From: a virus
Strand: one strand, 5' to 3'
Length of the DNA stretch: 20,113 bases
Virus record (IMG/VR): IMGVR_UViG_3300047510_002786
Span: 1-20,113 of that record
Position numbers and translations under genes: made by a program. The notes beneath the pieces were generated by a model. The model searched no databases and was not told the DNA's origin. It was given only the letters and a program-made list of their open reading frames with translations. This document shows, one piece after another, positions 1 through 13,600 of the stretch (within the stretch, counting starts at the first letter, position 1; every line of letters starts with the position of its first letter).

Positions 1-134
1 GCCTGGTGCAATTTGCCTATGATACGATTGTAGAGAACATGAGGAACATGGGACCTGAAGATGTTCTCAATGAGATCGCCAATGTGTATGATGAAGATGT
101 CATTCAGGAACTGGTGGAGGGTGTGACAGTCTGA
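1..134 (+). CDS. C-terminal end of a gene (partial), unknown function
   Basis: An open frame enters from the left edge and ends in TGA at 132-134; full codons begin at base 3. The visible 43 residues start LVQFAYDTIVEN and end ELVEGVTV, an acidic, helix-prone tail with the stretch GPEDVLNEIANVYDEDV. The composition fits the neighbouring phage genes. Similar acidic C-terminal tails occur in small cyanophage proteins of unknown role, so a phage hypothetical protein is the safest call. Its stop codon is followed four bases later by the TGGCACA element that also follows several other genes of this block, which supports the reading frame. Confidence 0.7.
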   Translation, partial: LVQFAYDTIVENMRNMGPEDVLNEIANVYDEDVIQELVEGVTV

Positions 135-138
135 CAAG

Positions 139-174
139 TGGCACAGGGGTGGTTGCATTCGTGCCCTGCCCCTG
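139..174 (+). other. Post-stop TGGCACA element and GC hairpin
   Basis: TGGCACA lies at 139-145, then CAGGGG (144-149) can pair with CCCCTG (169-174) across a 19-base loop. There is no T-run, so a strong intrinsic terminator is doubtful. The right arm runs into the TG of the next promoter. Confidence 0.4.
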
Positions 175-194
175 CCATACTGAATTCAGTTCAG
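173..194 (+). promoter_or_regulatory. Cassette promoter 1 with leader 10-mer
   Basis: Extended -10 TGcCATACT at 173-181, three bases, then TTCAGTTCAG (185-194), an 8/10 match to the array consensus CTCAGTTCAA. GGGAA follows and could serve as a ribosome binding site for the GTG start at 205. Confidence 0.6.
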
Positions 195-204
195 GGAAAC
201 CCCC

Positions 205-492
205 GTGCAATTCCAACTGTTCCTCGGTCGCAACATCCCCGACTCTGGCACCGTGACCAAGGCAATGATGCAGACCTTCATTCGTGAGGAAGTCTGCCCC
301 CGCTTCGATGGGTTCACCGTCACCGAAGGCGTGGGATTCTGGAAGGGTGATCAAGAGCAGGTTACGATCCTGACCTTTATCACCGACGACAGCGACAGCG
401 TGGCAGAGATCGCTGAGGCATTCAAAACCGCCTTCCGTCAGGAGAGCGTACTCATGACCGAAGTGGCGCTGCCCGTGTGCCAGTTCGTGTAG
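205..492 (+). CDS. DUF3574-like small protein
   Basis: 95 residues from a GTG start. No in-frame ATG is available upstream before the promoter, and CAGGGAA lies 8 bases before the GTG, so this start is well supported. The protein begins MQFQLFLGRNIPDSG, has a central EEVCPRFDGFTVTEGVGFW segment and ends QESVLMTEVALPVCQFV. This succession (hydrophobic strand plus GR, a PRF..GFTV core, an acidic helix, then QESVL and a terminal VC..F strand) is how I remember the DUF3574 family. The biochemical role of that family is not known to me. The protein has no signal peptide or membrane segment. It has its own promoter module and is monocistronic in appearance, with a GC hairpin right after the stop. 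Confidence 0.75.
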   Translation: MQFQLFLGRNIPDSGTVTKAMMQTFIREEVCPRFDGFTVTEGVGFWKGDQEQVTILTFITDDSDSVAEIAEAFKTAFRQESVLMTEVALPVCQFV

Positions 493-500
493 TATCACAA

Positions 501-520
501 GGGGGGTTGCGATGCCCCCC
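501..520 (+). terminator. GC hairpin without T-run
   Basis: GGGGGG (501-506) and CCCCCC (515-520) around an 8-base loop, 8 bases after the stop of the preceding gene. Only CTGTTCG follows, so it may act as a pause or RNA 3'-end stabiliser more than a classical terminator. Confidence 0.45.
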
Positions 521-527
521 CTGTTCG

Positions 528-545
528 TGCCATACTACGTTCATA
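528..545 (+). promoter_or_regulatory. Cassette promoter 2
   Basis: TGcCATACT at 528-536, preceded by TTCG as in promoters 1 and 20. The leader is diverged: ACG then TTCATAAGC in place of CTCAGTTCAA. Drives the ligase-like gene starting at 559. Confidence 0.5.
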
Positions 546-558
546 AGCAAACTACCCG

Positions 559-1455
559 ATGAAGAACACCCACCTGGAGCACCCCGAAGACACGATCCTG
601 AACGGCGACCTGTCCGTGCTGGACTGGTTCGTGACGCCTGGTTCCCTGTCCGTCAAGATCGACGGAGCGCCCGCCATCGTGTGGGGCATTGATCCTGCCT
701 GCGGCGAGTTCTTTGTAGGAACCAAAGCAGTCTTCAACAAGAAGAAGATTCGTATTGCTCACAATCACGAAGAGATTGATCAGTTCTATGAAGGCAATGT
801 AGCGCAGATTCTTCATTCGTGCTTTGATCATCTGCCCCGTACCGAAACGATCTATCAGGCAGACTTCATCGGGTTCGGTGGACTTTGTGAGTACAAGTCC
901 AACACGATCACGTATGTTTTTCCTGAGGTAGTTTCCCAGAACATTATCATCGCTCCGCACACCTGCTATTATGCTGAGAGCGATCTTCGTGATGCTGAGG
1001 CATACCCTGATCGTGCAATCTGGAATGATACCGAGCACGTCAAGTTCGTGAAACCGAATGCATTCATCGCTCACAATCAGGAATCCTTCGCTGATGTTGA
1101 GGAGGTGTGCAAGTTCGCCCGTGCATTGTCACTTGCTGTTCAGTTCGTAACTGATAGGAAAGCAGCAGAGATCAAAAAGCAAATCAACGCCCGTATTCGT
1201 GCTGGGATGAGGATTCACGAAGATGACTTTGAGTGTGATCCTAACCTGATCCGTTTGTGGTTGCTGGTGAAGTCCATTAAGGAAGATTGCCTGTTCCTGT
1301 GCCGCAATGATGGTCCTGCAGCATACATCAACGGCAACCGTATTGATGCTGAGGGTTACGTTCTCACCAATGAGTTCGGTATGTTCAAACTGGTGAATCG
1401 TGAGGTCTTCGCTTACGCCAACTTCAACTTCGGTAAGTTTCAAACTGTAGCGTAA
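559..1455 (+). CDS. KxDG-type nucleotidyltransferase / polynucleotide ligase-like protein
   Basis: 298 residues, the largest gene of the GC-rich block. It carries the ordered motifs of the covalent nucleotidyltransferase superfamily (DNA and RNA ligases, capping enzymes): motif I K33-I-D-G36 in SVKIDGAPA, a YQADFIGFG segment at 99-107 where motif III is expected, E265-G-Y-V-L-T at 265-270 as motif IV, and FKLVN at 276-280 as motif V with K277. K33 would be the AMP-accepting lysine. T4-type phages and cyanophages carry a group of proteins beginning HLEH.ED with a KxDGAPA motif that are usually left as hypothetical; this looks like a member. No separate DNA-binding domain is visible, and substrate (RNA or DNA) cannot be told. 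The gene's base composition is visibly lower in G+C than the small ORFs around it, and an intrinsic terminator follows, so it is a self-contained unit. Confidence 0.7.
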   Translation: MKNTHLEHPEDTILNGDLSVLDWFVTPGSLSVKIDGAPAIVWGIDPACGEFFVGTKAVFNKKKIRIAHNHEEIDQFYEGNVAQILHSCFDHLPRTETIYQADFIGFGGLCEYKSNTITYVFPEVVSQNIIIAPHTCYYAESDLRDAEAYPDRAIWNDTEHVKFVKPNAFIAHNQESFADVEEVCKFARALSLAVQFVTDRKAAEIKKQINARIRAGMRIHEDDFECDPNLIRLWLLVKSIKEDCLFLCRNDGPAAYINGNRIDAEGYVLTNEFGMFKLVNREVFAYANFNFGKFQTVA

Positions 1456-1460
1456 CACTT

Positions 1461-1476
1461 GCGACCTGGGCAGGTC
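1461..1476 (+). other. Short inverted repeat after the ligase-like gene
   Basis: GCGACCT and AGGTCGT around GGGC, giving a small GACCT/AGGTC stem directly after the stop at 1455. No T-run; it may be a minor 3'-end structure ahead of the true terminator. Confidence 0.3.
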
Positions 1477-1497
1477 GTTAAACTGCCTTCTGGTGGG

Positions 1498-1503
1498 TAT
1501 AAT
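1498..1503 (+). promoter_or_regulatory. Isolated TATAAT box just before a terminator
   Basis: A perfect -10 hexamer lies 2 bases before the terminator stem. No -35 is recognisable at 17 bases and the TG is one base out of register. Any transcript from it would be about 20-25 nt. Chance or a decayed promoter is equally possible. Confidence 0.25.
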
Positions 1504-1505
1504 CG

Positions 1506-1531
1506 GGGAGGGGTGGTGCCCTCCCTTTTTT
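1506..1531 (+). terminator. Rho-independent terminator
   Basis: Perfect 7-bp stem GGGAGGG (1506-1512) / CCCTCCC (1519-1525), loop GTGGTG, then six T (1526-1531) and a further T-rich tract. Ends transcription of the ligase-like gene. Confidence 0.85.
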
Positions 1532-1567
1532 ATACTTTTCTTTTTTTATTATTTTAAAGCTGCCCCC

Positions 1568-1630
1568 GTGACGACCTTTGATCAGGCAGCGACCCTGCTG
1601 CCGTCTTTGCCGATTGTCCCTTTATTATAA
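1568..1630 (+). CDS. Possible 20-residue GTG-started miniprotein
   Basis: A short open frame encodes MTTFDQAATLLPSLPIVPLL and ends TAA. Support is indirect: the start context CCCCCGTG matches that of the DUF3574-like gene, and the bases just after its stop (AGGCACTG) match the post-stop GGCACTG found after two accepted genes (2421 and 2853). No promoter module precedes it; it lies directly after the terminator T-tract. It could be a remnant of a longer gene cut back by rearrangement. Low confidence. Confidence 0.25.
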   Translation: MTTFDQAATLLPSLPIVPLL

Positions 1631-1658
1631 AGGCACTGCAGGGGCACTGGGAGGGGTC

Positions 1659-1684
1659 CTGTGCCACTTTCTGAACTGGCACAG
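1659..1684 (+). repeat. Inverted repeat containing TGGCACA
   Basis: CTGTGCCA (1659-1666) and TGGCACAG (1677-1684) form a perfect 8-bp stem with a 10-base loop. The right arm contains the TGGCACA element of the array. The 1456-1741 spacer otherwise holds the terminator, a T-rich tract and promoter 3. Confidence 0.5.
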
Positions 1685-1712
1685 ACCTGGTTGCGGGGGA
1701 TCCTTGATGCCC

Positions 1713-1731
1713 TATGCTGATTCCAGATCAA
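1713..1731 (+). promoter_or_regulatory. Cassette promoter 3
   Basis: TATGCT at 1713-1718, three bases, then TCCAGATCAA (1722-1731), a diverged copy of the leader 10-mer, followed by AGGAAC, which is a usable Shine-Dalgarno 6 bases before ATG. Confidence 0.5.
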
Positions 1732-1741
1732 AGGAACTCCA

Positions 1742-1888
1742 ATGACCCGCCTGATCATCCCTGCTGGTGTCACCCTGCTGCTCCTGTGGATCGGAGGCGG
1801 CATCCTGACCGCTTCCCTGCAGGTTGCCAAAGCGAATGCCGACCGCCTTGCTGTGACGATCTGTGAAGTGTCACAGGACTGCCGCTGA
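1742..1888 (+). CDS. 48-residue small membrane protein
   Basis: Encodes MTRLIIPAGVTLLLLWIGGG followed by ILTASLQVAKANADRLAV and a short Cys-containing tail ending CR. Residues about 4-26 are one continuous hydrophobic segment (LIIPAGVTLLLLWIGGGILTAS), long enough for a single transmembrane helix; the rest is a short polar tail with two cysteines (C41, C47). An AGGAAC site lies 6 bases upstream. Phage single-pass miniproteins of this kind may be holin-like, superinfection or host-membrane factors, but nothing here identifies which. It is its own cassette, followed 15 bases after the stop by the next extended -10. Confidence 0.65.
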   Translation: MTRLIIPAGVTLLLLWIGGGILTASLQVAKANADRLAVTICEVSQDCR

Positions 1889-1903
1889 TTGGCATCCGCC
1901 ACC

Positions 1904-1925
1904 TGCTACAATTAACTCAGTTCAA
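1904..1925 (+). promoter_or_regulatory. Cassette promoter 4 (consensus copy)
   Basis: TGCTACAAT (1904-1912), TAA, CTCAGTTCAA (1916-1925), then AGGAAC as ribosome binding site. This is an exact consensus copy. Confidence 0.75.
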
Positions 1926-1936
1926 AGGAACTCACC

Positions 1937-2176
1937 ATGAAGGTCCAGCAAGTCACCACCACCAGCACCCAGGTCACCCTGGCAGACGGCACTGAGGTGC
2001 TCTACTCCTACAGCACCCCCGTTGCCGCCCTGGTGCCTGGTCGGGGTTGGATGCGGACCGAGCAGTTCTACTCCACGACCACCAGCAAGCACATCAACGC
2101 CTGGTTGCGGAAGAACTGCGGCGGCACCGTCCAGACTGTGCCGCAATGGGAAGTGGACCAACTGGTGGCGTTCTAG
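1937..2176 (+). CDS. Small conserved-looking phage protein, beta-rich
   Basis: 79 residues. The N-terminal half is a Thr/Val-rich beta pattern (KVQQVTTTSTQVTLADGTEVLYSYSTPVAALV), the middle has RTEQFYSTTTSKHINAWLRK and the end is VPQWEVDQLVAF. The combination of a beta hairpin reading out Y-S-Y-S-T-P-V-A and a following FYSTTTSKHIN helix start is typical of a small-protein family seen in cyanophages and other T4-like phages with no known function. No membrane segment. Start chosen at the ATG after AAGGAACTCACC, directly downstream of an exact consensus promoter module. Confidence 0.75.
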   Translation: MKVQQVTTTSTQVTLADGTEVLYSYSTPVAALVPGRGWMRTEQFYSTTTSKHINAWLRKNCGGTVQTVPQWEVDQLVAF

Positions 2177-2196
2177 GGGCGCCACCCCCCGATCCA

Positions 2197-2218
2197 TGCT
2201 ACAATTAACTCAGTTCAA
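2197..2218 (+). promoter_or_regulatory. Cassette promoter 5 (consensus copy)
   Basis: TGCTACAAT (2197-2205), TAA, CTCAGTTCAA (2209-2218). Leader continues CCAACCCACC with no Shine-Dalgarno. A weak GGGG/CCCC pairing (2176-2179 with 2185-2188) precedes it. Confidence 0.75.
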
Positions 2219-2228
2219 CCAACCCACC

Positions 2229-2420
2229 ATGTCCCGCCTGGAAATGACCTACGCTGAGATCACCGCCGCCCACCTGAGCGCCTCTCAGGCACGTGCCGCC
2301 ATCTGTGACCTTGCCGATCAGTTCTCCTGGGAGACCGTTGCCCGTGAGATGCTCTCCCGCATGACGGGCGATGAGGCACGGGAGTTTGTGGAGGACTTCC
2401 AATCCCTCTACGCCGATTGA
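2229..2420 (+). CDS. 63-residue acidic helical protein, unknown
   Basis: Starts MSRLEMTYAEITAAHLSASQ and ends EFVEDFQSLYAD. The whole chain reads as three amphipathic helices with no hydrophobic core long enough for a membrane span, so a small soluble helical bundle is likely. An open frame extends further upstream to 2022, but that part lies over the preceding gene in another frame; the ATG at 2229 sits correctly below the promoter module. Function not recognised. Confidence 0.7.
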   Translation: MSRLEMTYAEITAAHLSASQARAAICDLADQFSWETVAREMLSRMTGDEAREFVEDFQSLYAD

Positions 2421-2432
2421 GGCACTGGCACA
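2418..2432 (+). repeat. Post-stop repeat, copy A
   Basis: TGAGGCACTGGCACA, including the TGA stop. Identical 15-mer occurs at 2850-2864 after an unrelated gene. Confidence 0.7.
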
Positions 2433-2433
2433 C

Positions 2434-2469
2434 GGGAGGCACGTTAGCGTTGCATCGGTAAGACCTCCC
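2434..2469 (+). other. Hairpin ahead of promoter 6
   Basis: GGGAGG (2434-2439) can pair with CCTCCC (2464-2469), loop 24 bases. The right arm ends one base before the extended -10. Confidence 0.35.
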
Positions 2470-2491
2470 TGCTACAATTCTCTCAGTTCAA
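2470..2491 (+). promoter_or_regulatory. Cassette promoter 6 (consensus copy)
   Basis: TGCTACAAT (2470-2478), TCT, CTCAGTTCAA (2482-2491), then AGGAAC as ribosome binding site for the miniprotein at 2502. Confidence 0.75.
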
Positions 2492-2501
2492 AGGAACCCC
2501 G

Positions 2502-2588
2502 ATGATCCGCTCCAACGACCCCCTGACCGTTGCCGCATCCTGCCCCTGCAAGGGACACCCCGCCTGCCCCAAATGCGGTTGGATGTGA
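2502..2588 (+). CDS. 28-residue four-cysteine miniprotein
   Basis: Encodes a 28-residue peptide whose second half is C14-P-C16-K-G-H19-P-A-C22-P-K-C25-G-W-M. Two cysteine pairs (CxC and CxxC) separated by five residues, with a histidine between, look like a minimal zinc knuckle. Very short, but it is framed by an exact promoter module with AAAGGAAC in front and by a hairpin spacer behind, as for the longer genes. A Zn-binding host-interaction peptide is a reasonable guess; a truncated remnant of a zinc-ribbon protein is the alternative. Confidence 0.55.
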   Translation: MIRSNDPLTVAASCPCKGHPACPKCGWM

Positions 2589-2608
2589 CGCCTGAACAAC
2601 TGGCATAC

Positions 2609-2625
2609 GGGGGCATCCTGCCCCC
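2609..2625 (+). terminator. GC hairpin without T-run
   Basis: Perfect 7-bp stem GGGGGCA (2609-2615) / TGCCCCC (2619-2625) with a 3-base loop, just after a diverged TGGCATA element. Followed by TCCCTGACC, so terminator strength is uncertain. Confidence 0.5.
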
Positions 2626-2637
2626 TCCCTGACCCCC

Positions 2638-2656
2638 TATACTGTTCTCAGTTCAA
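2638..2656 (+). promoter_or_regulatory. Cassette promoter 7
   Basis: TATACT (2638-2643) without the upstream TG, three bases, CTCAGTTCAA (2647-2656). Leader ACGACCCGCG, no Shine-Dalgarno. Confidence 0.65.
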
Positions 2657-2666
2657 ACGACCCGCG

Positions 2667-2852
2667 ATGAAAGTCTACGCTGTGATCGGTGGTTGGGATT
2701 ATGAAGGCGAGTCCTTCCACTCCCTGCGCCTGTTCGATTGCAAGTCTGCTGCTGACGCCTACCACCAGCACCTGACGGAGGATGAGGGATACGATTATGC
2801 CCTGATCGAAGTGCGGGAGGTCTGCCTGGAATCCGCCCTCTGTGCCGCCTGA
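2667..2852 (+). CDS. Small conserved phage protein (MKVY..GG.DYEGE type)
   Basis: 61 residues. Begins MKVYAVIGGWDYEGESFHSLRLFDCKSAADAY and ends EVREVCLESALCAA. The opening strand, GG.DYEGE turn, LRLFDCKSAADAY helix and closing EVREV strand resemble a compact alpha/beta fold found in many small phage proteins of unknown function. The C-terminus LCAA is shared in type with two other proteins of the array (GLCAA at 4158, HCYAA at 5196). The stop codon is part of the 15-base post-stop repeat. Confidence 0.75.
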   Translation: MKVYAVIGGWDYEGESFHSLRLFDCKSAADAYHQHLTEDEGYDYALIEVREVCLESALCAA

Positions 2853-2864
2853 GGCACTGGCACA
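2850..2864 (+). repeat. Post-stop repeat, copy B
   Basis: Same 15-mer TGAGGCACTGGCACA as at 2418-2432, here followed by ACGG. Confidence 0.7.
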
Positions 2865-2893
2865 ACGGTCCTGGGCACGACCCTAAACTGCCC

Positions 2894-2912
2894 TACAATA
2901 CTCTCAGTTCAA
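2894..2912 (+). promoter_or_regulatory. Cassette promoter 8
   Basis: TACAAT (2894-2899) lacking the TG, ACT, CTCAGTTCAA (2903-2912). No Shine-Dalgarno in the 17-base leader to ATG. Confidence 0.65.
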
Positions 2913-2929
2913 ACAACCCCGAACTTCAA

Positions 2930-3094
2930 ATGCGTTACAACCCCTCCACCGACCGCGCCCTGAACATTGAGGAGATCGCCGCCCAGTGCCGCAACGCCAT
3001 CCTGAAGGCAGACGCCCAACGCGCCCTGCAGGTGGCATACGATGAGATCCTGGAGAATGCCCGCTGGGAGAACGACATCCTGATCCCTGCCTGA
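2930..3094 (+). CDS. 54-residue helical protein, unknown
   Basis: Starts MRYNPSTDRALNIEEIAAQC and continues as a long amphipathic helix rich in Ala, Glu and Arg (about residues 12-48), ending WENDILIPA. A single long charged helix suggests a coiled-coil or partner-binding peptide. Not recognised. The start lies 17 bases below the leader 10-mer; the preceding AACTTCAA has no Shine-Dalgarno character. Confidence 0.6.
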   Translation: MRYNPSTDRALNIEEIAAQCRNAILKADAQRALQVAYDEILENARWENDILIPA

Positions 3095-3105
3095 GCGATT
3101 CTCCA

Positions 3106-3123
3106 GGGGGTCACCCGACCCCC
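3106..3123 (+). terminator. Tight GC hairpin
   Basis: Perfect 7-bp stem GGGGGTC (3106-3112) / GACCCCC (3117-3123) with a 4-base loop, 11 bases after a stop codon and 6 bases before the next extended -10. No T-run. Confidence 0.5.
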
Positions 3124-3129
3124 TCCACC

Positions 3130-3151
3130 TGCTACAATTAACCCAGTTCAA
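3130..3151 (+). promoter_or_regulatory. Cassette promoter 9
   Basis: TGCTACAAT (3130-3138), TAA, CCCAGTTCAA (3142-3151; one change from consensus). Confidence 0.75.
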
Positions 3152-3164
3152 CCGACCTGATCCG

Positions 3165-3305
3165 ATGACCCGCTACGAAGTCCGCTATCAGACCCCCTAC
3201 AACGCCTGTGAGTGGCGCTCCCAGTTCTTCCGCACTCTGGCAGAGGCAGAGTCTATGGTCGCCTTCTACCGCTCCTGCGGATCGCCTGCTCACCTGGCAC
3301 CCTGA
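3165..3305 (+). CDS. 46-residue MTRY protein, unknown
   Basis: Starts MTRYEVRYQTPYNACEWRSQ and has FFRTLAEAESMVAFYRSCGSPAHLAP. Reads as strand, strand, helix, strand: a small alpha/beta fold that may interact with a host protein. The first residues MTRY-V are shared with the protein at 4784. The stop is immediately followed by CC and the next TGCTACAAT, so the two cassettes are fused head to tail. Confidence 0.6.
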   Translation: MTRYEVRYQTPYNACEWRSQFFRTLAEAESMVAFYRSCGSPAHLAP

Positions 3306-3307
3306 CC

Positions 3308-3324
3308 TGCTACAATACGATCAA
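3308..3324 (+). promoter_or_regulatory. Cassette promoter 10, short-leader variant
   Basis: TGCTACAAT (3308-3316) two bases after the previous TGA; then ACG and ATCAACC. Relative to CTCAGTTCAACC the middle GTTCA is missing. Confidence 0.65.
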
Positions 3325-3338
3325 CCGCAACGGACCTG

Positions 3339-3500
3339 ATGACCTCTGCTGAACTGAACGCCGCCATCGCCGCCGGTGAATTCAAGATCACCCGCCTCCC
3401 CAGTCGCGGTCCCCGCCCTGGACAAGCATCCCTGACCCCTAAGGAGTTCCGCATCGCCTGCCACGCTGAGAAGCGCCGCCAGCAGGGTTGGATCGCCTGA
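3339..3500 (+). CDS. 53-residue basic protein, unknown
   Basis: Starts MTSAELNAAIAAGEFKITRL, has the Pro/Arg-rich link PSRGPRPGQ and a basic C-terminal helix EFRIACHAEKRRQQGWIA. Net positive charge and a helix rich in R/K would fit nucleic-acid binding, but no named domain is visible. Ends two bases before the next extended -10. Confidence 0.6.
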   Translation: MTSAELNAAIAAGEFKITRLPSRGPRPGQASLTPKEFRIACHAEKRRQQGWIA

Positions 3501-3502
3501 CC

Positions 3503-3511
3503 TGCTACAAT
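3503..3511 (+). promoter_or_regulatory. Cassette promoter 11 lacking the leader 10-mer
   Basis: TGCTACAAT at 3503-3511 two bases after TGA. The leader has no CTCAGTTCAA; instead a hairpin GGGAG (3518-3522) / CTCCC (3534-3538) lies inside the untranslated region before ATG at 3564. Confidence 0.6.
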
Positions 3512-3563
3512 GGGAACGGGAGCGCCCTAAAGACTCCCAGCACACTCTATCCCCCGAATCCTA

Positions 3564-3662
3564 ATGTCCCTGTCCCTTGCCCTCTCCCTGCTCCGCCAAG
3601 GAACCAACGGCGATGAGATCCTGAGCATCCTGGAATCCATCGCCGCCGACCAACCTGAATAG
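3564..3662 (+). CDS. 32-residue peptide MSLSLALSLLRQG...
   Basis: Encodes MSLSLALSLLRQGTNGDEIL followed by SILESIAADQPE. One amphipathic helix, a TNGDEI turn and a second helix. Similar short peptides (LALSLLRQG.NGDEIL) are common in cyanophage genomes, often unannotated because of length, which supports a real gene. Promoter 11 lies 52 bases upstream and an intrinsic terminator lies just after the stop. Confidence 0.6.
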   Translation: MSLSLALSLLRQGTNGDEILSILESIAADQPE

Positions 3663-3669
3663 TGGCACA
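3663..3669 (+). repeat. Post-stop TGGCACA
   Basis: TGGCACA one base after the stop TAG, followed by ACGGAGGGG. Confidence 0.5.
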
Positions 3670-3671
3670 AC

Positions 3672-3695
3672 GGAGGGGCACACCCCCTCCCTTTT
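3672..3695 (+). terminator. Rho-independent terminator
   Basis: GGAGGGG (3672-3678) / CCCCTCC (3684-3690), 5-base loop, then CTTTT. This is the clearest terminator inside the array. Confidence 0.7.
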
Positions 3696-3700
3696 GCCTC

Positions 3701-3719
3701 TATACTGATCTCAGTTCAA
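3701..3719 (+). promoter_or_regulatory. Cassette promoter 12
   Basis: TATACT (3701-3706), GAT, CTCAGTTCAA (3710-3719). Directly after the terminator, so the terminator-promoter pair forms one compact module. Confidence 0.7.
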
Positions 3720-3728
3720 ACGACCCCG

Positions 3729-3908
3729 ATGACCGCCTGGAACCCCAACACCCTCACCACCGTCACCCTGCCCGAGGGCAAGTGGGGCACCATCCGCACT
3801 GCCCTGCTCTGCATCGCCTGCGATGAGAGCACTAAAGGCAACCATGCCGACGCCGACCATTGGTTGAGCGCCTACAATGCCCTGAAGGAAGCGATGGGGA
3901 TGGAGTGA
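3729..3908 (+). CDS. 59-residue protein, unknown
   Basis: Starts MTAWNPNTLTTVTLPEGKWG, then TIRTALLCIACDESTKGNHADADHW and a final helix LSAYNALKEAMGME. The CIAC and HADADH residues (C28, C31, H39, H44) could bind a metal, but spacing does not match a family I know. Soluble, no signal peptide. ATG chosen as the first start below promoter 12. Confidence 0.6.
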   Translation: MTAWNPNTLTTVTLPEGKWGTIRTALLCIACDESTKGNHADADHWLSAYNALKEAMGME

Positions 3909-3918
3909 TCCCCCGACC

Positions 3919-3935
3919 TGCTACAATACTCTCAA
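3919..3935 (+). promoter_or_regulatory. Cassette promoter 13, short-leader variant
   Basis: TGCTACAAT (3919-3927), ACT, CTCAACC. The GTTCA of the 10-mer is deleted as in promoters 10 and 16. Confidence 0.65.
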
Positions 3936-3948
3936 CCGACCCGATCCG

Positions 3949-4158
3949 ATGATCACCATCCCCACCGACGACCAGTTCCGCAGCGCAATGCAAGGACTGC
4001 CCGCCTTTATGCTTGAGATGGGCACAGACTACAACTACGATCTGGTTTGGGATTGGGTTTGCGCTCAGTGTGGCACTGAATGGTTGGATGATGATCAGGT
4101 CGCCATCCTGGATGCCCTCTACGACCTGGCAGCATCCTATGGACTCTGCGCCGCCTGA
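3949..4158 (+). CDS. 69-residue acidic protein, unknown
   Basis: Starts MITIPTDDQFRSAMQGLPAF, has DLVWDWVCAQCGTEWLDDDQVAILDALYDLAASYGLCAA. It is acidic and mostly helical, with a CAQC pair (C38, C41) that is not matched by a second cysteine pair. Function not recognised. It ends in LCAA, and the codons for AA plus the stop (GCCGCCTGACC) run straight into the next promoter. Confidence 0.65.
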   Translation: MITIPTDDQFRSAMQGLPAFMLEMGTDYNYDLVWDWVCAQCGTEWLDDDQVAILDALYDLAASYGLCAA

Positions 4159-4160
4159 CC

Positions 4161-4182
4161 TGCTACAATTAACCCAGTTCAA
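4161..4182 (+). promoter_or_regulatory. Cassette promoter 14
   Basis: TGCTACAAT (4161-4169), TAA, CCCAGTTCAA (4173-4182), two bases after TGA. Same leader variant as promoter 9. Confidence 0.75.
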
Positions 4183-4191
4183 CCCCCACCG

Positions 4192-4707
4192 ATGACCGCC
4201 ACCCTCACCACCGCCCAGCAGCAGTACCTGGACGCCTTCGCCGCCCTGTATGAAGCAGCAGACGCCCTGAACGCTGGTGATCCGATGTCCTATGCCCGCA
4301 GCAGGGAGATCCACCTTGCCTGCTTGCTGGGGCACACCGTCGCAGACTCCTACAGCGGCGCAGACGCCTACGAAGCAGACGGGACCCCTGTAGAGTACAA
4401 ATCCACAATCGGCGGCGCTATCAGCGCAACCTACAATGGGATCAGCGTTCAACCGACCTGGGAGGATCAGGAAGCATACCTGATCGACCATAAGATCGGC
4501 GCCTATGCCCGCCACTACTACGCCCGCTATGAAGGCGCACGGGTCGCTGAGGTGTGGGTCCTGGACGCCGACACGGTGCTCTCCCTGATCCTGCCGAAGG
4601 CGCAACGCCAGTACGCCGCCAAGCGCAACGGCAAGGCAAAGGACCCCCGCATCGGTGTGACTCTCTCCGCTGGTGAGATCCGCCGCCACGGTCGCCGCCT
4701 GGTGTGA
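4192..4707 (+). CDS. Putative PD-(D/E)XK nuclease-fold protein
   Basis: 171 residues. After an N-terminal helical stretch (1-30), E39 lies in SYARSREIHLACLLG, followed by S55-GADAYEADGTPVEYKST. D58 and E68-x-K70 are spaced like the metal-binding D...ExK of restriction-endonuclease-like folds, and PVEYKS is a strand with polar residues on one face, as expected. The remainder alternates strands and helices and ends in a basic tail (KRNGKAKDPR..RRHGRRLV) that could contact DNA. Role could be host DNA degradation or modification; the fold is inferred from pattern only. Bases 4431-4458 inside it resemble a degraded copy of the cassette promoter-leader. Confidence 0.5.
   Translation: MTATLTTAQQQYLDAFAALYEAADALNAGDPMSYARSREIHLACLLGHTVADSYSGADAYEADGTPVEYKSTIGGAISATYNGISVQPTWEDQEAYLIDHKIGAYARHYYARYEGARVAEVWVLDADTVLSLILPKAQRQYAAKRNGKAKDPRIGVTLSAGEIRRHGRRLV
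4431..4458 (+). repeat. Intragenic look-alike of the cassette module
   Basis: CTACAAT, then GGGATCAGCG and TTCAACCGACC. Compare promoter 17: CTACAAT, ACACTCAG, TTCAACCGAC. It lies in the coding frame of the nuclease-like gene (TYNGISVQPTW) with no suitable gene below it. Confidence 0.35.
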
Positions 4708-4754
4708 CGGTCAGGGAACCGCCCACCCCGTTGGCCGCGGCGCCCCTGATGCCC

Positions 4755-4773
4755 TATACTGATCTCAGTTCAA
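4755..4773 (+). promoter_or_regulatory. Cassette promoter 15
   Basis: TATACT (4755-4760), GAT, CTCAGTTCAA (4764-4773), then AGGAAAC as ribosome binding site. Confidence 0.7.
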
Positions 4774-4783
4774 AGGAAACCAA

Positions 4784-4945
4784 ATGACCCGCTACGACGT
4801 GATCTGCCCCTCCGCTCCCTGGGAGAACACCACCACCGATCAGGATCGCGCTTGGGACCTCTGCCTGTCTCTGTCTGAAGAGTACGGGTACGCCCAGGTC
4901 CGCTGCAACGGGGTCATCATCGGAGACTACACTGAGGGGCGCTGA
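4784..4945 (+). CDS. 53-residue MTRY protein, unknown
   Basis: Starts MTRYDVICPSAPWENTTTDQ, then DRAWDLCLSLSEEYGYAQVRCNGVIIGDYTEGR. Pattern strand-helix-strand-strand, like a small ferredoxin-type or split-barrel half; cysteines C8, C27, C41 have no clear motif. Shares MTRY-V with the protein at 3165 and may be a distant paralogue. AAAGGAAA sits 5 bases before ATG. Confidence 0.6.
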   Translation: MTRYDVICPSAPWENTTTDQDRAWDLCLSLSEEYGYAQVRCNGVIIGDYTEGR

Positions 4946-4953
4946 CCCGCCCC
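4936..4953 (+). other. Hairpin spanning a stop codon
   Basis: GGGGCG (4936-4941) / CGCCCC (4948-4953), loop CTGACC containing the TGA of the preceding gene. The left arm is therefore coding. Confidence 0.4.
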
Positions 4954-4958
4954 CGACC

Positions 4959-4975
4959 TGCTACAATACTCTCAA
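4959..4975 (+). promoter_or_regulatory. Cassette promoter 16, short-leader variant
   Basis: TGCTACAAT (4959-4967), ACT, CTCAACC; CCCCCGACC precedes it exactly as at promoter 13. Confidence 0.65.
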
Positions 4976-4989
4976 CCGCAACCCACCCG

Positions 4990-5196
4990 ATGCGCTACCC
5001 CATCAATACCAGCGACAGCAACGCCATCGACACCCTGATCGCCAACCCCATCACGGGTAGCGTTCGCGTCCGCTTTCATAAGACTCCTGCCCGCCTCTAC
5101 CGCTTGAAGGCATCCCGCCTGGAGATTCTGCTGCTGCTCCTGGATTCGAATCTGTCCCTGGGGCGGTGGGTCAATCTCCACTGCTACGCCGCCTGA
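4990..5196 (+). CDS. 68-residue protein, possibly KTSC-like
   Basis: Starts MRYPINTSDSNAIDTLIANP and continues ITGSVRVRFHKTPARLYRLK, a Leu-rich helix LEILLLLLDSN and LSLGRWVNLHCYAA. The order of a beta hairpin (VRVRF...YRL), a helix and a final W-x-N strand recalls the small KTSC-type domain, but key residues of that domain are not clearly present, so this is only a suggestion. The helix ILLLLL is too short for a membrane span. Ends in CYAA with the GCCGCCTGACC junction shared with the gene at 3949. Confidence 0.6.
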   Translation: MRYPINTSDSNAIDTLIANPITGSVRVRFHKTPARLYRLKASRLEILLLLLDSNLSLGRWVNLHCYAA

Positions 5197-5198
5197 CC

Positions 5199-5220
5199 TG
5201 CTACAATACACTCAGTTCAA
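5199..5220 (+). promoter_or_regulatory. Cassette promoter 17 (consensus copy)
   Basis: TGCTACAAT (5199-5207), ACA, CTCAGTTCAA (5211-5220), two bases after TGA. Confidence 0.75.
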
Positions 5221-5235
5221 CCGACACCCCCACCG

Positions 5236-5448
5236 ATGAACCTCTACATCCTGAACGAAGTGCTCTCCGACTACACCGCTGGTATGGCGGTCATCGCTGC
5301 CGAATCGAAGGACGCTGCCCGCGCCATCTGGATTGAGCAGTTCGGAGCATACCACGCCGACGACTTCGATAAGTACGCCGAATTCACGGTGATCGAAGGC
5401 GTCAACCATCCCGCTGGTCTGGTCGCCCACGTCTTCGGCGGGGGTTGA
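5236..5448 (+). CDS. 70-residue alpha/beta protein, unknown
   Basis: Starts MNLYILNEVLSDYTAGMAVI, then AAESKDAARAIWIEQFG and ends EFTVIEGVNHPAGLVAHVFGGG. The pattern (opening strand, a strand ending V-I-A-A-E-S, a helix DAARAI, a closing V strand near a C-terminal PAGLV..F..G) resembles a widespread family of small phage proteins of unknown function that begin MK.Y.L and contain VVAAES.EEAR. No catalytic residues are evident. Confidence 0.7.
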   Translation: MNLYILNEVLSDYTAGMAVIAAESKDAARAIWIEQFGAYHADDFDKYAEFTVIEGVNHPAGLVAHVFGGG

Positions 5449-5466
5449 CCTCTCCCCCTCTGACCC

Positions 5467-5487
5467 TGTACAATTCTCTCAGTTCAC
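5467..5487 (+). promoter_or_regulatory. Cassette promoter 18
   Basis: TACAAT (5469-5474) with TG directly abutting it (5467-5468, one base short of canonical), TCT, CTCAGTTCAC (5478-5487). Confidence 0.65.
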
Positions 5488-5498
5488 ACCCCGAACCG

Positions 5499-5687
5499 AT
5501 GCACTGCTCCACCTTCCCCGCCATCGTCTGGAACTGCGCCGATGAGAACGGGTGCATCCGCTGGTCTGCCGCCTGCCAGGCAGCAAAGGAACACGGTCTC
5601 TGGGATGACTTCCGCACCGACTACGGCACAACCGCCCGCTTCGGTCCCGTTGATGCTGGTGAGTTCCTGGTCTGGTTGGGGTACTGA
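5499..5687 (+). CDS. 62-residue protein, unknown
   Basis: Starts MHCSTFPAIVWNCADENGCI and ends GPVDAGEFLVWLGY. An in-frame ATG at 5445 would add 18 residues but lies upstream of the promoter module and overlaps the preceding gene, so the ATG at 5499 is preferred. Cysteines C3, C13, C19, C26 and the aromatic residues suggest a small folded domain; no known motif. Followed by a G-rich/C-rich hairpin spacer. Confidence 0.6.
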   Translation: MHCSTFPAIVWNCADENGCIRWSAACQAAKEHGLWDDFRTDYGTTARFGPVDAGEFLVWLGY

Positions 5688-5695
5688 TTCGTGGG

Positions 5696-5718
5696 GGGTG
5701 GGGTACTGACCCCCGCCC
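5696..5718 (+). other. G-rich/C-rich hairpin spacer
   Basis: GGGTGGGG (5696-5703) opposes CCCCCGCCC (5710-5718) over TACTGA, with one mismatch or bulge. ATTCGTG occurs on both sides (just before it and again before promoter 19). Confidence 0.4.
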
Positions 5719-5724
5719 GATTCG

Positions 5725-5746
5725 TGCTACAATTCTCTCAGTTCCG
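5725..5746 (+). promoter_or_regulatory. Cassette promoter 19, last intact copy
   Basis: TGCTACAAT (5725-5733), TCT, CTCAGTTCCG (5737-5746). The 10-mer is altered in its last two bases. Confidence 0.7.
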
Positions 5747-5756
5747 AACCCCTCCA

Positions 5757-5966
5757 ATGCGTTTCCCACTCGCCCAGTGCTCCGACCTCGTGACCCGTGA
5801 GATTCGTTGGATCTCCCGTGCCGATCAACTGAAGAACGGTTCCCGCCCTTCGGCATACATCCACTGGGGTCTGCCCGCTACGGTCATCGCCGCCCAGTAC
5901 GCTGAGGTCCATGCCGATGAGGTGGGTCGCTGCCCCATCAGCGGGTGGCGCAGTTCCCAGGGGTGA
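5757..5966 (+). CDS. 69-residue protein, unknown, last gene of the GC-rich array
   Basis: Starts MRFPLAQCSDLVTREIRWIS, then RADQLKNGSRPSAYIHWGLPATVIAAQYAEVHADEVGRCPISGWRSSQG. The frame is open back to 5691 but an upstream start would lie across the promoter, so ATG at 5757 is used. Mixed alpha/beta composition, slightly basic, no recognised domain. After its stop there is no further intact promoter module, only a hairpin with repeats and then the composition boundary. Confidence 0.6.
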   Translation: MRFPLAQCSDLVTREIRWISRADQLKNGSRPSAYIHWGLPATVIAAQYAEVHADEVGRCPISGWRSSQG

Positions 5967-5973
5967 GCACCTC

Positions 5974-6017
5974 CTGCCCCCTGCGTTCGTTCGTGGGGGG
6001 CAGTGCGTTCGTTCGTG
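5974..6017 (+). repeat. Stem-loop whose loop is repeated directly after the stem
   Basis: CTGCCCCC (5974-5981) pairs perfectly with GGGGGCAG (5996-6003). The 14-base loop TGCGTTCGTTCGTG (5982-5995) is repeated exactly at 6004-6017, adjoining the stem. Could be the terminator/promoter remnant of a lost cassette. Confidence 0.75.
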
Positions 6018-6027
6018 ATCGGCAGTT

Positions 6028-6050
6028 GGCGGGGGGTGGGGGGTCGTCGG
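6028..6050 (+). other. G-rich tract
   Basis: Two runs of six G separated by one T, plus flanking GG pairs. A G-quadruplex is possible but loops would be very short. Confidence 0.3.
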
Positions 6051-6061
6051 CGCGGCCGCGT
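6051..6061. other. Composition boundary with 10-bp palindrome
   Basis: CGCGGCCGCG (6051-6060) is a perfect palindrome. Everything left of it is GC-rich; from 6061 (TATATTAAA) onward the sequence is AT-rich, apart from a short mixed stretch to about 6090. Confidence 0.7.
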
Positions 6062-6092
6062 ATATTAAACCCATGGGACCCCTTAGGCTACA

Positions 6093-6125
6093 AAGTCTTG
6101 CTTTCGCTAGTGTTTTATAAGACTT
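6093..6125. terminator. Inverted repeat flanked by A/T tracts, possible terminator
   Basis: AAGTCTT (6093-6099) and AAGACTT (6119-6125), 19-base loop, followed by AATTAAAAAATTTTT. Loop is long, so folding is weak; could serve either strand. The span 5967-6183 holds no gene that I can support. Confidence 0.35.
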
Positions 6126-7496: not shown

Positions 7497-7528
7497 CACC
7501 TATCTCTTGTATAGAGTAGGTGTTTTTT
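7497..7528 (+). terminator. Rho-independent terminator
   Basis: CACCTA (7497-7502) pairs with TAGGTG (7517-7522), with an inner CTCT/AGAG extension past a one-base bulge, then six T (7523-7528). Ends the operon started at 6355. Confidence 0.85.
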
Positions 7529-7544
7529 CTTGCCTTAAAATAGA

Positions 7545-7552
7545 AATAAATA
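7545..7552 (+). promoter_or_regulatory. Late promoter candidate upstream of speD
   Basis: AATAAATA, one base from the T4-type late consensus TATAAATA and matching the relaxed form proposed for cyanophages, 35 bases before the ATG at 7588. Confidence 0.45.
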
Positions 7553-7587
7553 AATTTTTACTAAAAGATGAGTTGAAACAATTTTCA

Positions 7588-7914
7588 ATGGGCAAGCACC
7601 TGCTTCTTGAGGTGTATGATATTGATTTTGAAGCAATTAATGATGTTAAATTACTTCAAGATGCTATGATTAGAGGCATAAATCGTGCAAAAATGACGAT
7701 TTTAAACGTTTTTTCGCATTGTTTTTACCCTCAAGGTTGTACGATTGTCATTGCCCTGGCGGAAAGTCACGTTTCTTGTCACACTTGGCCCGAAAATGGG
7801 TGTATTGCGATTGATGTCTATACATGTGGAGAAGGAAATCCCAAATTAATTGCAATTGAACTCTTAAAATACTTAAATTCCGATAATTATTCTCTAAAAG
7901 AGATATATCGTTAA
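7588..7914 (+). CDS. speD: S-adenosylmethionine decarboxylase proenzyme
   Basis: 108 residues from ATG. The frame is open up to a TTG at 7507 but that lies inside the terminator, so ATG 7588 (MGKHLLLEVYD) is chosen; this gives close to the usual prokaryotic length of about 120. The self-cleavage motif is A58-E59-S60-H61-V-S-C-H65-T-W-P-E: the chain is cut between E59 and S60 and S60 becomes the pyruvoyl cofactor. H65 and C80 (in VYTCGEG) are the processing and proton-donor residues, in the same spacing as Thermotoga SpeD (S63, H68, C83). The product makes decarboxylated AdoMet for spermidine synthesis. speD is a known auxiliary metabolic gene of cyanomyoviruses and often lies near structural genes; polyamine supply for DNA packaging is the usual suggestion. 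Confidence 0.92.
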   Translation: MGKHLLLEVYDIDFEAINDVKLLQDAMIRGINRAKMTILNVFSHCFYPQGCTIVIALAESHVSCHTWPENGCIAIDVYTCGEGNPKLIAIELLKYLNSDNYSLKEIYR

Positions 7915-10633: not shown

Positions 10634-13600
10634 ATGATACAAACGGGGTTTGAATCAAGAGTAAAAATTCAACAAATAATTGATAGTCAATTACCAGAAT
10701 TTATTTTAGATGAAAGTCCAAAATCTGTGGATTTTTTGAAGCAATATTATATCTCCCAAGAATATCAGGGTGGTTCAATTGACATTTCTGATAATTTGGA
10801 TCAGTATTTAAAACTTGACAATTTAACACCAGAGGTAATCACAGGATTTACAATTCTTTCTGCAAATATTTCTGCAATAAGTGATACTATTCAAGTTGAT
10901 AGTACAAAAGGATTCCCTCAAAAATATGGTTTATTGAAAATAGATGATGAGATTATTACATATACTGGCATAACTACTAATACATTTACTGGTTGTATTA
11001 GAGGATTTAGTGGAATCACGAATTTTCATAAGCAGTTAAATGCTGAAGAATTAGTTTTTTCAGTTTCCGATGCTTCATCTCATAATGCCGAATCGAAGGT
11101 AGATAATTTAAGTTCTCTATTTTTACAGGAATTTTATAAAAAAATAAAATATACTCTTGCTTCAGATTTGCAAGATATTAATTTTGTTTCTGATCTAAAT
11201 GTATCAAACTTTATAAAGTCTTTAAAAACTTTATATCAAACTAAAGGAACGGAAGAAGCATTTAGAATTCTGTTTAATGTTTTATTTGGAGAAACTCCAA
11301 AAATAATTAATCTTGAAAATTTTCTAATTAAACCTTCAACTGCAAATTATATTAGAAGATTGATTGTCGTATGTGATGTAATATCTGGCAATCCACTTAA
11401 TCTTGAAGGACAAACAATAATAAAAACAACAGATTCAAACACTACGGCATCTGTTTCAGAAGTAGAAATAATTAAAAGAAAAAATAAAACATATTATAAA
11501 CTTTTACTTTTTCTTGGATATACTCTTCCACCAGAACCGATAACAGGGCAATTTAATATTACAGGAAGCACTAAAAATTTAGAAACTATTAGTATTGGAA
11601 GTTCTGTCATTACAGTTGATTCTACAATAGGATTTCCACAATCTGGAATAATTTATTCCGGAAATAATGTCATAAATTATTCTGATAAGAGCGTCAACCA
11701 ATTCTTTGGGTGTAGTGGAATAACTTCCCCCATTGAAGTGGCATCGATAATTTTTTCTGAAGATACTTATTTTGGATATGAAAATGGTGATACTTCCAAA
11801 AAAGTTATATTAAGAATTACTGGTATTTTGTCAGATTATATTCCTATTAAAACTGATTTTCCGATAAGTGCCGGTGAAAAAATAGCAGTAAAAAGTATCG
11901 GTAAGATTATCAAAAATCCAGATACTAATAAAACTTATAGAGAAATTTTTTCAAATAGTTGGATTTATAATACAAGTTCCAGATATGAAATAATTGATGA
12001 TTTTACTCCAGGAAATACTTCACAAATTATTTTAAAAAGTCCCGTAGATGCATCAAGTTTAAAAGTCGGAGACATTATTGAATTACTATACCGAAATACT
12101 CAAACAATATTAAAAAGTAATCTCCAAGTAAATTCTATTTCTATTAACGATAGTGATTTATATGAAATTGGTGTAGATGATAATGTTACCTTTTCATCTG
12201 GTTCTAGATATGATATTAGAAGAAAAATTAAAACCGCATCATCTTCAACTATACCATTTGACTACAATCCTATAACCTCAGACATTCAAAATGTATATGA
12301 TGATAATGATTACATGTTCATTGCTTCAAATTCATTGCCATCATATGAGATAACTAAATCTTTATTTTCTTATGATGCACTTGGAGTTGCTGATAAAGAT
12401 CCCGAAACTAATTTAAATTCATTAATTGTTTTTAGTAATAAAGTTTCATTTTTTACTGGTGATGAAATTTATTATAAACCCTCAATAACACCAATTTCTG
12501 GGTTAAAAGAAGGTATATATTATATCCAAGTTTTACCAGGAAATCTACAAGTTAGACTGTATGGTTCCAGGTCTGTAATAGGAACAATAAATTATTTGCA
12601 TTTTGGTGATCTAACAGAAGGAATTCACACCTTTATTTTAAATTCTCAGAAAGAAAGAATTTTATCAGCACAAAAAATACTTAGGAAATTTCCTTTAGAT
12701 GCTAATATTGGTGATGGTGAATCTGAGGAAACTCCTCCTGGAAGTATTGGAATGCTTGTAAATGGAGTTGAAATATTTAATTATAAGACAACTAATAAAA
12801 TTTATTATGGACCATTAGAAAAAGTTAATGTTTTGAGTGGTGGTGGTGATTATGATGTCATAAATCCTCCCAATTTATCTCTTTCTAGTGGATCAGCATT
12901 AATTCAACCATGCATTAGTGGATCTATAGAAAAAGTTTATGTAACTCCACAAAATTTTGATATTGACGTAGTAGTTTCTGTTGCTATTACTGGTGGAAAT
13001 GGATCTGGTGCAGTGTTCCAACCAATAATTGAAAGAAAAAGAAGAGAGATTGAATTTGATGCTAGATTATCAAGCTCTGGTGGAGGAGTTAATAACACCA
13101 CAGAAACAATAACATTTTTAACTGAACACAACTTATTAGATGGTCAAGAAATTATATACCGACCTCTTAACAATACTCCAGTTGGAGTTGGAACTTTTCT
13201 TGGATCAAACACAAATACTGGATTAACTTTAAAAGATGGATCATCATATTTTGCAAAATATGTAAATAATTTCACGATTCGTCTTTATCCGTCTATCACA
13301 GATTATAGATCTGGAATTAACACAATAGGATTTACTATTAGTAACGCTGCGGGTATTCAAAAATTTGCGACAGAAATTAAAAATACTTTAAGTGAAATTA
13401 AAGTTATCAATGGTGGAGAAAATTATAAGAATAGAAAACTTAGAGTTTTACCTAGTGGAATTTCTACAGCAAAAGACACTATTTATTTTCCCGGACATAA
13501 ATTTGAAGATGGTGAGAAAATTATATACTCCAATACAGGAAATCCATTATCAGGATTAACAACCGAAAAACAATATTATATTTTAAAGATAGACGATGAT

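Follow-up and report, generated by a model that had tools for sequence, protein, structure and literature searches.

A single-gene cassette array at a fixed locus of T4-like cyanophages, with probable homologous exchange at a shared promoter module

Why would a run of small, unrelated phage genes each carry its own copy of the same short promoter-like module, and do the genes enter and leave the genome through it? The question is raised by the virus record IMGVR_UViG_3300047510_002786, a stretch of 20,113 bases (hereafter the window), in which bases 173-5746 hold an array of 19 small genes in one orientation (g1 to g19; Table 1), the majority preceded by an extended -10 element, a gap of 6 nucleotides (nt) and AGTTCAA. 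Judged by its sequence, the window is a fragment of Kyanoviridae (T4-like cyanomyovirus), phages of photosynthetic bacteria. We consider it quite probable that this locus is a single-gene cassette array, held at a fixed position in T4-like cyanophages, in which genes are exchanged by homologous recombination at the promoter module. Sequence comparisons show gains, losses and changes of order that affect single genes, with the homology between closely matching cassettes placed in different surroundings starting and stopping in the modules.

The original prediction, made from the letters alone, had proposed about 20 small genes with module copies, and all 19 places could be read as such: twelve carried strong copies, two had copies with three mismatches, three had an alternative start region of the CTCAACCGC type and two retained little besides the -10 element, the open reading frames (ORFs) behind them encoding 28-298 amino acids (aa). 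The proposed pattern also proved to exceed chance, in that TGCTACAAT-N3-CTCAGTTCAA with at most 3 mismatches gave eight matches in the window and none in 100 shuffles, whilst TANNNT-N3-CTCAGTTCAA with at most 2 mismatches recovered 12 array copies. When a weight matrix derived from the window modules was applied to 87 related contigs (252 kb), 600 forward and no reverse modules were found, against five in shuffled sequence, and none of 580 array-gene matches in these contigs was inverted. The search of cyanophage genomes and viromes that had been suggested returned 1149 forward and 28 reverse modules in the whole contigs of a larger set, made up of 170 non-redundant IMG/VR contigs with 1163 cassettes of module plus ORF in 174 families. 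Rather than being confined to one genome, the array is thus widespread, and it occurs in the isolate S-PM2.

The distance from the -10 element to AGTTCA in the wider set was exactly 6 nt in 613 of 649 cases and that to the ATG was 27-35 nt (5-95% range), with C at position +11 and A at +12 in 99% of modules; no conserved -35 hexamer was found in them. The module is strand-specific, spaced to the exact base and common to unrelated genes, and its geometry suggests a promoter with a start at the A of CTCA and a leader of about 18 nt. Both promoter activity and recombination at the modules are what we infer from these sequences. An Rfam search gave no match, and a BLAST comparison of the short module with phage records yielded chance-level matches only. 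A host origin of the module was rejected, as an exact-pattern search through 84,980 genomes of bacteria and archaea yielded 3 non-cyanobacterial matches, about the number expected by chance.

Gene content differed widely between contigs (mean Jaccard index 0.13) and families were not saturating (138 in 119 contigs). The 798 adjacencies comprised 428 distinct neighbour pairs, 266 of them seen once, so that an identical gene order in related phages, the outcome that had been named as contrary to the original prediction, did not occur. At least two well-supported upstream neighbours were found in 15 families, and 10 of the 16 window adjacencies occurred nowhere else in the set. It had further been predicted that breaks in gene presence and absence would fall in the modules, and this was borne out. 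Amongst orthologues with different upstream genes, similarity was at background upstream of the module and climbed inside it; where the previous genes differed, the shared stretch began in the module in 15 of 21 events. Downstream break points were scored where genes of at least 95% identity had different next genes and the spacer measured 30 nt or more (n = 17), and identity ended ahead of the next module in only one, compared with 6.7 expected under uniform breaks (P 0.0015), this uniform-break null being a simple one. In the other 16 events identity extended through the spacer into or through the next module. Filled and empty sites were found in 102 configurations, the difference being one gene plus one module. 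The five closest pairs, for instance L302/L127 and L029/L312, switched between -15 and +21; in the closest example, L302 versus L127, TGATCTGCTACAATACTC was common to all three junctions. Modules of unrelated genes resembled one another more closely if they came from one genome than if they came from different genomes (z 13), and neighbours were most alike, which fits pairing and conversion among modules.

The borders could also be accounted for if the module were a shared early promoter under selection only, with exchange by flanking homology or by illegitimate recombination anywhere, the survivors being those with an intact promoter and gene. Such a filter would likewise place borders between genes, and several observations count in its favour or against exchange at the module. 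The majority gene order holds in 87% of comparisons, above the prediction of free shuffling; the shared stretch reaches back into the spacer in 4 of the 21 upstream events and begins in the leader in two; overlapping identity inside the module was seen in only 3 of 23 filled/empty pairs, most being too diverged to place the switch; and g11 is common in relatives yet lacks a module. Nonetheless, we regard selection alone as unlikely, given that identity in 16 of the 17 long-spacer events crosses spacers that are not conserved, that the closest filled/empty pairs switch within the module or at its edge, and that the likeness of modules within genomes is as expected if modules pair. The single-gene swapping originally envisaged is supported by the break points; relative order is partly kept.

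As the module is a repeat and the data are mostly metagenomic, assemblers may have joined different genomes at it. That this produced the array appears very improbable: exact repeats between junctions of one contig had a median of 10 nt and a 95% limit of 24 nt, reaching 31 nt or more in 1.6%; 83 adjacencies recur independently, in diverged contigs; and the window matches a 60.8-kb contig, though possibly one from the same sample, at 99.96% identity over 10.7 kb. The isolate genome of S-PM2, moreover, has the same layout and families, with 11 cassettes at 21,542-24,802, shortly upstream of gp25, whose families are shared with environmental contigs; by sequence, it is the same locus as that of the window. 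Eight of the S-PM2 cassette ORFs (21570, 21830, 22097, 23012, 23263, 23503, 23789 and 24129) have no matching coding sequence in NC_006820, where the annotated ORFs lying over several of them are on the minus strand or out of frame. Among other phages, the marine S-WAM2, S-RIM32 and S-CAM4 show variant modules scattered over the corresponding place, S-SRM01 has two modules, S-SZBM1 has a relative of g17 with two weak modules, and S-CREM1 and DSL-LC02 carry relatives of cassette g15 inside tightly packed ORF blocks without modules.

The array resembles an integron in its co-oriented single-gene cassettes, which a short repeat separates, and in its open gene pool, and one could suppose that a recombinase cuts the module as an att site. 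The apparent switch points, however, vary within the module; the repeat is shaped as a promoter-like core and not as an att site or attC hairpin; each cassette has its own promoter; and a scan of 95 array proteins revealed no integrase. Site-specific recombination of this kind is hardly credible here.

A closer parallel is found in the promoter-early stem-loops (PeSLs) of T4-type phages, reportedly described by Arbiol et al. in 2010 and Comeau et al. in 2014, which are said to be repeated early-promoter elements among the small non-essential genes of hyperplastic regions, providing short homologies for gene shuffling; recombination of adjacent copies is said to release small DNA circles. The array likewise consists of repeated promoter-like elements that would act as short homologies for shuffling, with many copies among the small variable genes of a hyperplastic region and with gene exchange bordered at the elements. 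It differs in having roughly one module to each gene at a single fixed locus, a different module sequence without a -35 in a different phage family, and a gene pool common to a marine isolate and environmental contigs. Its constant part, furthermore, is a promoter core with a conserved start region, the hairpin being present at under half of junctions. Spacers between cassettes are 5-55 nt long (less than 10 nt at 124 junctions), and stable hairpins are typical of those of 35-55 nt (273 of 650 junctions; mean minimum free energy -15.4 versus -9.9 in shuffles), whilst hairpins in spacers of 10-24 nt were not above shuffles. The stem-loop is absent from over half of junctions and the T tail is rare, TTTT occurring in 8 of 242 long (35-55 nt) spacers. 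In 143 of these 242, the motif TGGCACA also stands just past the stop codon and before the hairpin (for example window 2421-2440 and 2853-2872). In the window, the GC hairpin predicted before many copies was present at about half of the junctions, with a T tail at only two (after 1455 and at 3672-3690). Of the promoter plus stem-loop module originally described, the -10 and start region are thus conserved, but there is no conserved -35 and the stem-loop is often missing. The initial interpretation, that of a PeSL-type cassette system in a dense cyanophage form, is supported and remains the best reading of the sequences; full membership is not claimed because most junctions lack the stem-loop or terminator or have it without a T tail, and promoter function is itself predicted. 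PeSL work on T4-type phages is cited in PMC4503421 and PMC5931544.

The cassette proteins have a median length of 62 aa in the wider set. Substitutions at codon positions 1, 2 and 3 of the cassette genes stood at 1917:1515:5484, which indicates that the genes are translated and under purifying selection. Recognised functions were rare among 95 family representatives (anti-restriction, a HicA-like toxin and a MutH-like endonuclease), and PADLOC returned no defence-system match for these families. The largest small gene of the window, g14, has no Pfam match and is predicted to adopt a PvuII endonuclease fold (Foldseek E 2.8e-6), of PD-(D/E)XK type, with invariant residues D58, E68 and K70; the catalytic triad of PvuII is Asp, Glu and Lys. 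No methyltransferase was seen adjoining g14.

A DUF6267 gene flanks the array on one side and the baseplate genes flank it on the other. A homologous baseplate cluster, gp25/gp6, is found downstream, and window 6.1-13.1 kb shares 71% DNA identity over 96% with the baseplate region of the freshwater Synechococcus phage S-SRM01. Across the 119 contigs with at least five cassettes each, a baseplate-side gene comes next on the same strand in 90 and elsewhere in none, and DUF6267 (the g2 family) precedes the third cassette on the same strand in 73; modules of whole genomes are grouped into one or a few neighbouring stretches. G+C is 47-65% over bases 1-6050 (about 60% across most of the array) and 25-35% in the remainder, and third-position G+C is about 0.69 in cassette genes and 0.14-0.26 in late-side genes of the window. 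The change of composition at about 6060 does not stem from a local assembly join, for the 60.8-kb contig, which is possibly from the same sample, has this junction too; over 77 contigs, islands averaged 0.58 G+C versus 0.36 downstream. The window presents two composition regimes in one phage genome (1-6060 and 6060-20113). Further downstream, a homologue of S-adenosylmethionine decarboxylase (speD, 7507-7914) lies beside the baseplate genes, as in S-SRM01, and a single open frame of more than 3160 aa (10634-20113), a giant virion structural protein adjoining gp6, runs off the window.

Table 1. Positions of the cassette features in the window, its G+C border and the predicted starts in S-PM2
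Feature	Position	Strand	Details
Module copy	173..194	+	Moderate (3 mismatches), TGCCATACT-GAA-TTCAGTTCAG; pattern scan
g1	205..492	+	DUF3574-like protein, 95 aa, GTG start; Pfam 4.8e-17
Module copy	528..549	+	Weak, -10 only; GC hairpin 497-524 ahead
g2	559..1455	+	DUF6267 / phrog_455 protein; upstream border of array
Intrinsic terminator	1505..1535	+	T-tailed, downstream of g2
Module copy	1710..1731	+	Moderate (3 mismatches)
g3	1742..1888	+	48 aa
Module	1904..1925	+	Strong, exact
g4	1937..2176	+	phrog_5643, 79 aa
Module	2197..2218	+	Strong, exact
g5	2229..2420	+	63 aa
Module	2470..2491	+	Strong, exact
g6	2502..2588	+	28 aa, conserved family
Module	2635..2656	+	Strong, TATACT type
g7	2667..2852	+	phrog_17343, 61 aa
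Module	2891..2912	+	Strong
g8	2930..3094	+	54 aa
Module	3130..3151	+	Strong
g9	3165..3305	+	46 aa
Module	3308..3329	+	Alternative start region ATCAACCGCA; -10 box abuts g9 stop codon
g10	3339..3500	+	53 aa
Extended -10 only	3503..3511	+	Without CTCAGTTCAA
g11	3564..3662	+	32 aa; homologues in 117 loci; no canonical module, longer leader
Hairpin with T tail	3659..3703	+	Between g11 and g12
Module	3698..3719	+	Strong, TATACT type
g12	3729..3908	+	59 aa
Module	3919..3940	+	Alternative start region CTCAACCG
g13	3949..4158	+	phrog_714, 69 aa
Module	4161..4182	+	Strong
g14	4192..4707	+	171 aa, predicted PvuII-like endonuclease fold
Module	4752..4773	+	Strong, TATACT type
g15	4784..4945	+	53 aa, most frequent cassette family; 189 related stretches in IMG/VR
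Module	4959..4980	+	Alternative start region CTCAACCGCA
g16	4990..5196	+	phrog_7365, family of S-PM2 ORF 23012
Module	5199..5220	+	Strong, exact
g17	5236..5448	+	70 aa
Module	5466..5487	+	Strong
g18	5499..5687	+	62 aa
Module	5725..5746	+	Strong
g19	5757..5966	+	Last cassette, family of last S-PM2 cassette (24617)
G+C switch	6040..6100	.	Abrupt, about 0.62 to 0.35; array downstream border; junction also in longer contig
Predicted start A, S-PM2 modules	21554, 21811, 22081, 22325, 22996, 23244, 23484, 23770, 24110, 24325, 24595		

Small orphan genes of a cyanomyovirus, shuffled in metagenomes, have been described as the S-PM2 ORFanage, and S-PM2-like genes are reported to be enriched in freshwater (Puxty et al. 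2015, PMC4503421; Clokie et al. 2010, PMC2984593). The array is a similar block of small orphan genes and, in S-PM2, occupies 21.5-24.8 kb, within the ORFanage as originally delimited (ORFs 002-078; Clokie et al. 2010) but outside the part deleted in the laboratory (ORFs 017-050, 5.8-15.3 kb); this excludes the 9.5-kb deletion as a module-to-module event. The ORFs of the deleted part are overlapping and operon-like, in contrast to promoter cassettes, and PeSLs were considered too sparse there, that mechanism being judged unlikely (PMC4503421). A promoter-cassette array near gp25 does not feature in the available portions of the published accounts (Puxty et al. 2015; Clokie et al. 2010). The g15-g18 hyperplastic region of marine cyanomyoviruses (Millard et al. 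2009, via PMC2984593) is also a variable block within structural genes, yet at another locus and with larger metabolic genes, and no promoter-module array is described in what that source relates of it.

Under homologous exchange at the module, each cassette would comprise one small ORF preceded by the promoter module (-10, start A of CTCA and a 5'-AGTTCAA leader) and followed by a spacer, and each gene would be transcribed early from its own module by the host RNA polymerase. Where two phages co-infect one cell, or copies pair within one genome, phage homologous recombination could act on the roughly 25-30 nt of shared module; a crossover there would therefore leave an intact promoter ahead of an intact gene, and the array would be a place where accessory genes, probably for host interaction, can be plugged in. 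More tentatively, it may be a gene-capture platform of the Kyanoviridae, in which the promoter core is, without stem-loop or recombinase, also the site of recombination, and a captured gene would consequently be expressed at once; this would fulfil an integron-like role through homologous recombination and supply an open pool, common to the lineage, of early genes for host takeover and counter-defence. The module can be used as a search key by which small early genes, in their hundreds, are found and annotated correctly. S-PM2, grown on Synechococcus WH7803, is a culturable system for direct tests of starts and exchange. The array would provide a concrete mechanism by which orphan small genes enter and leave cyanophage genomes, a matter left open for S-PM2.

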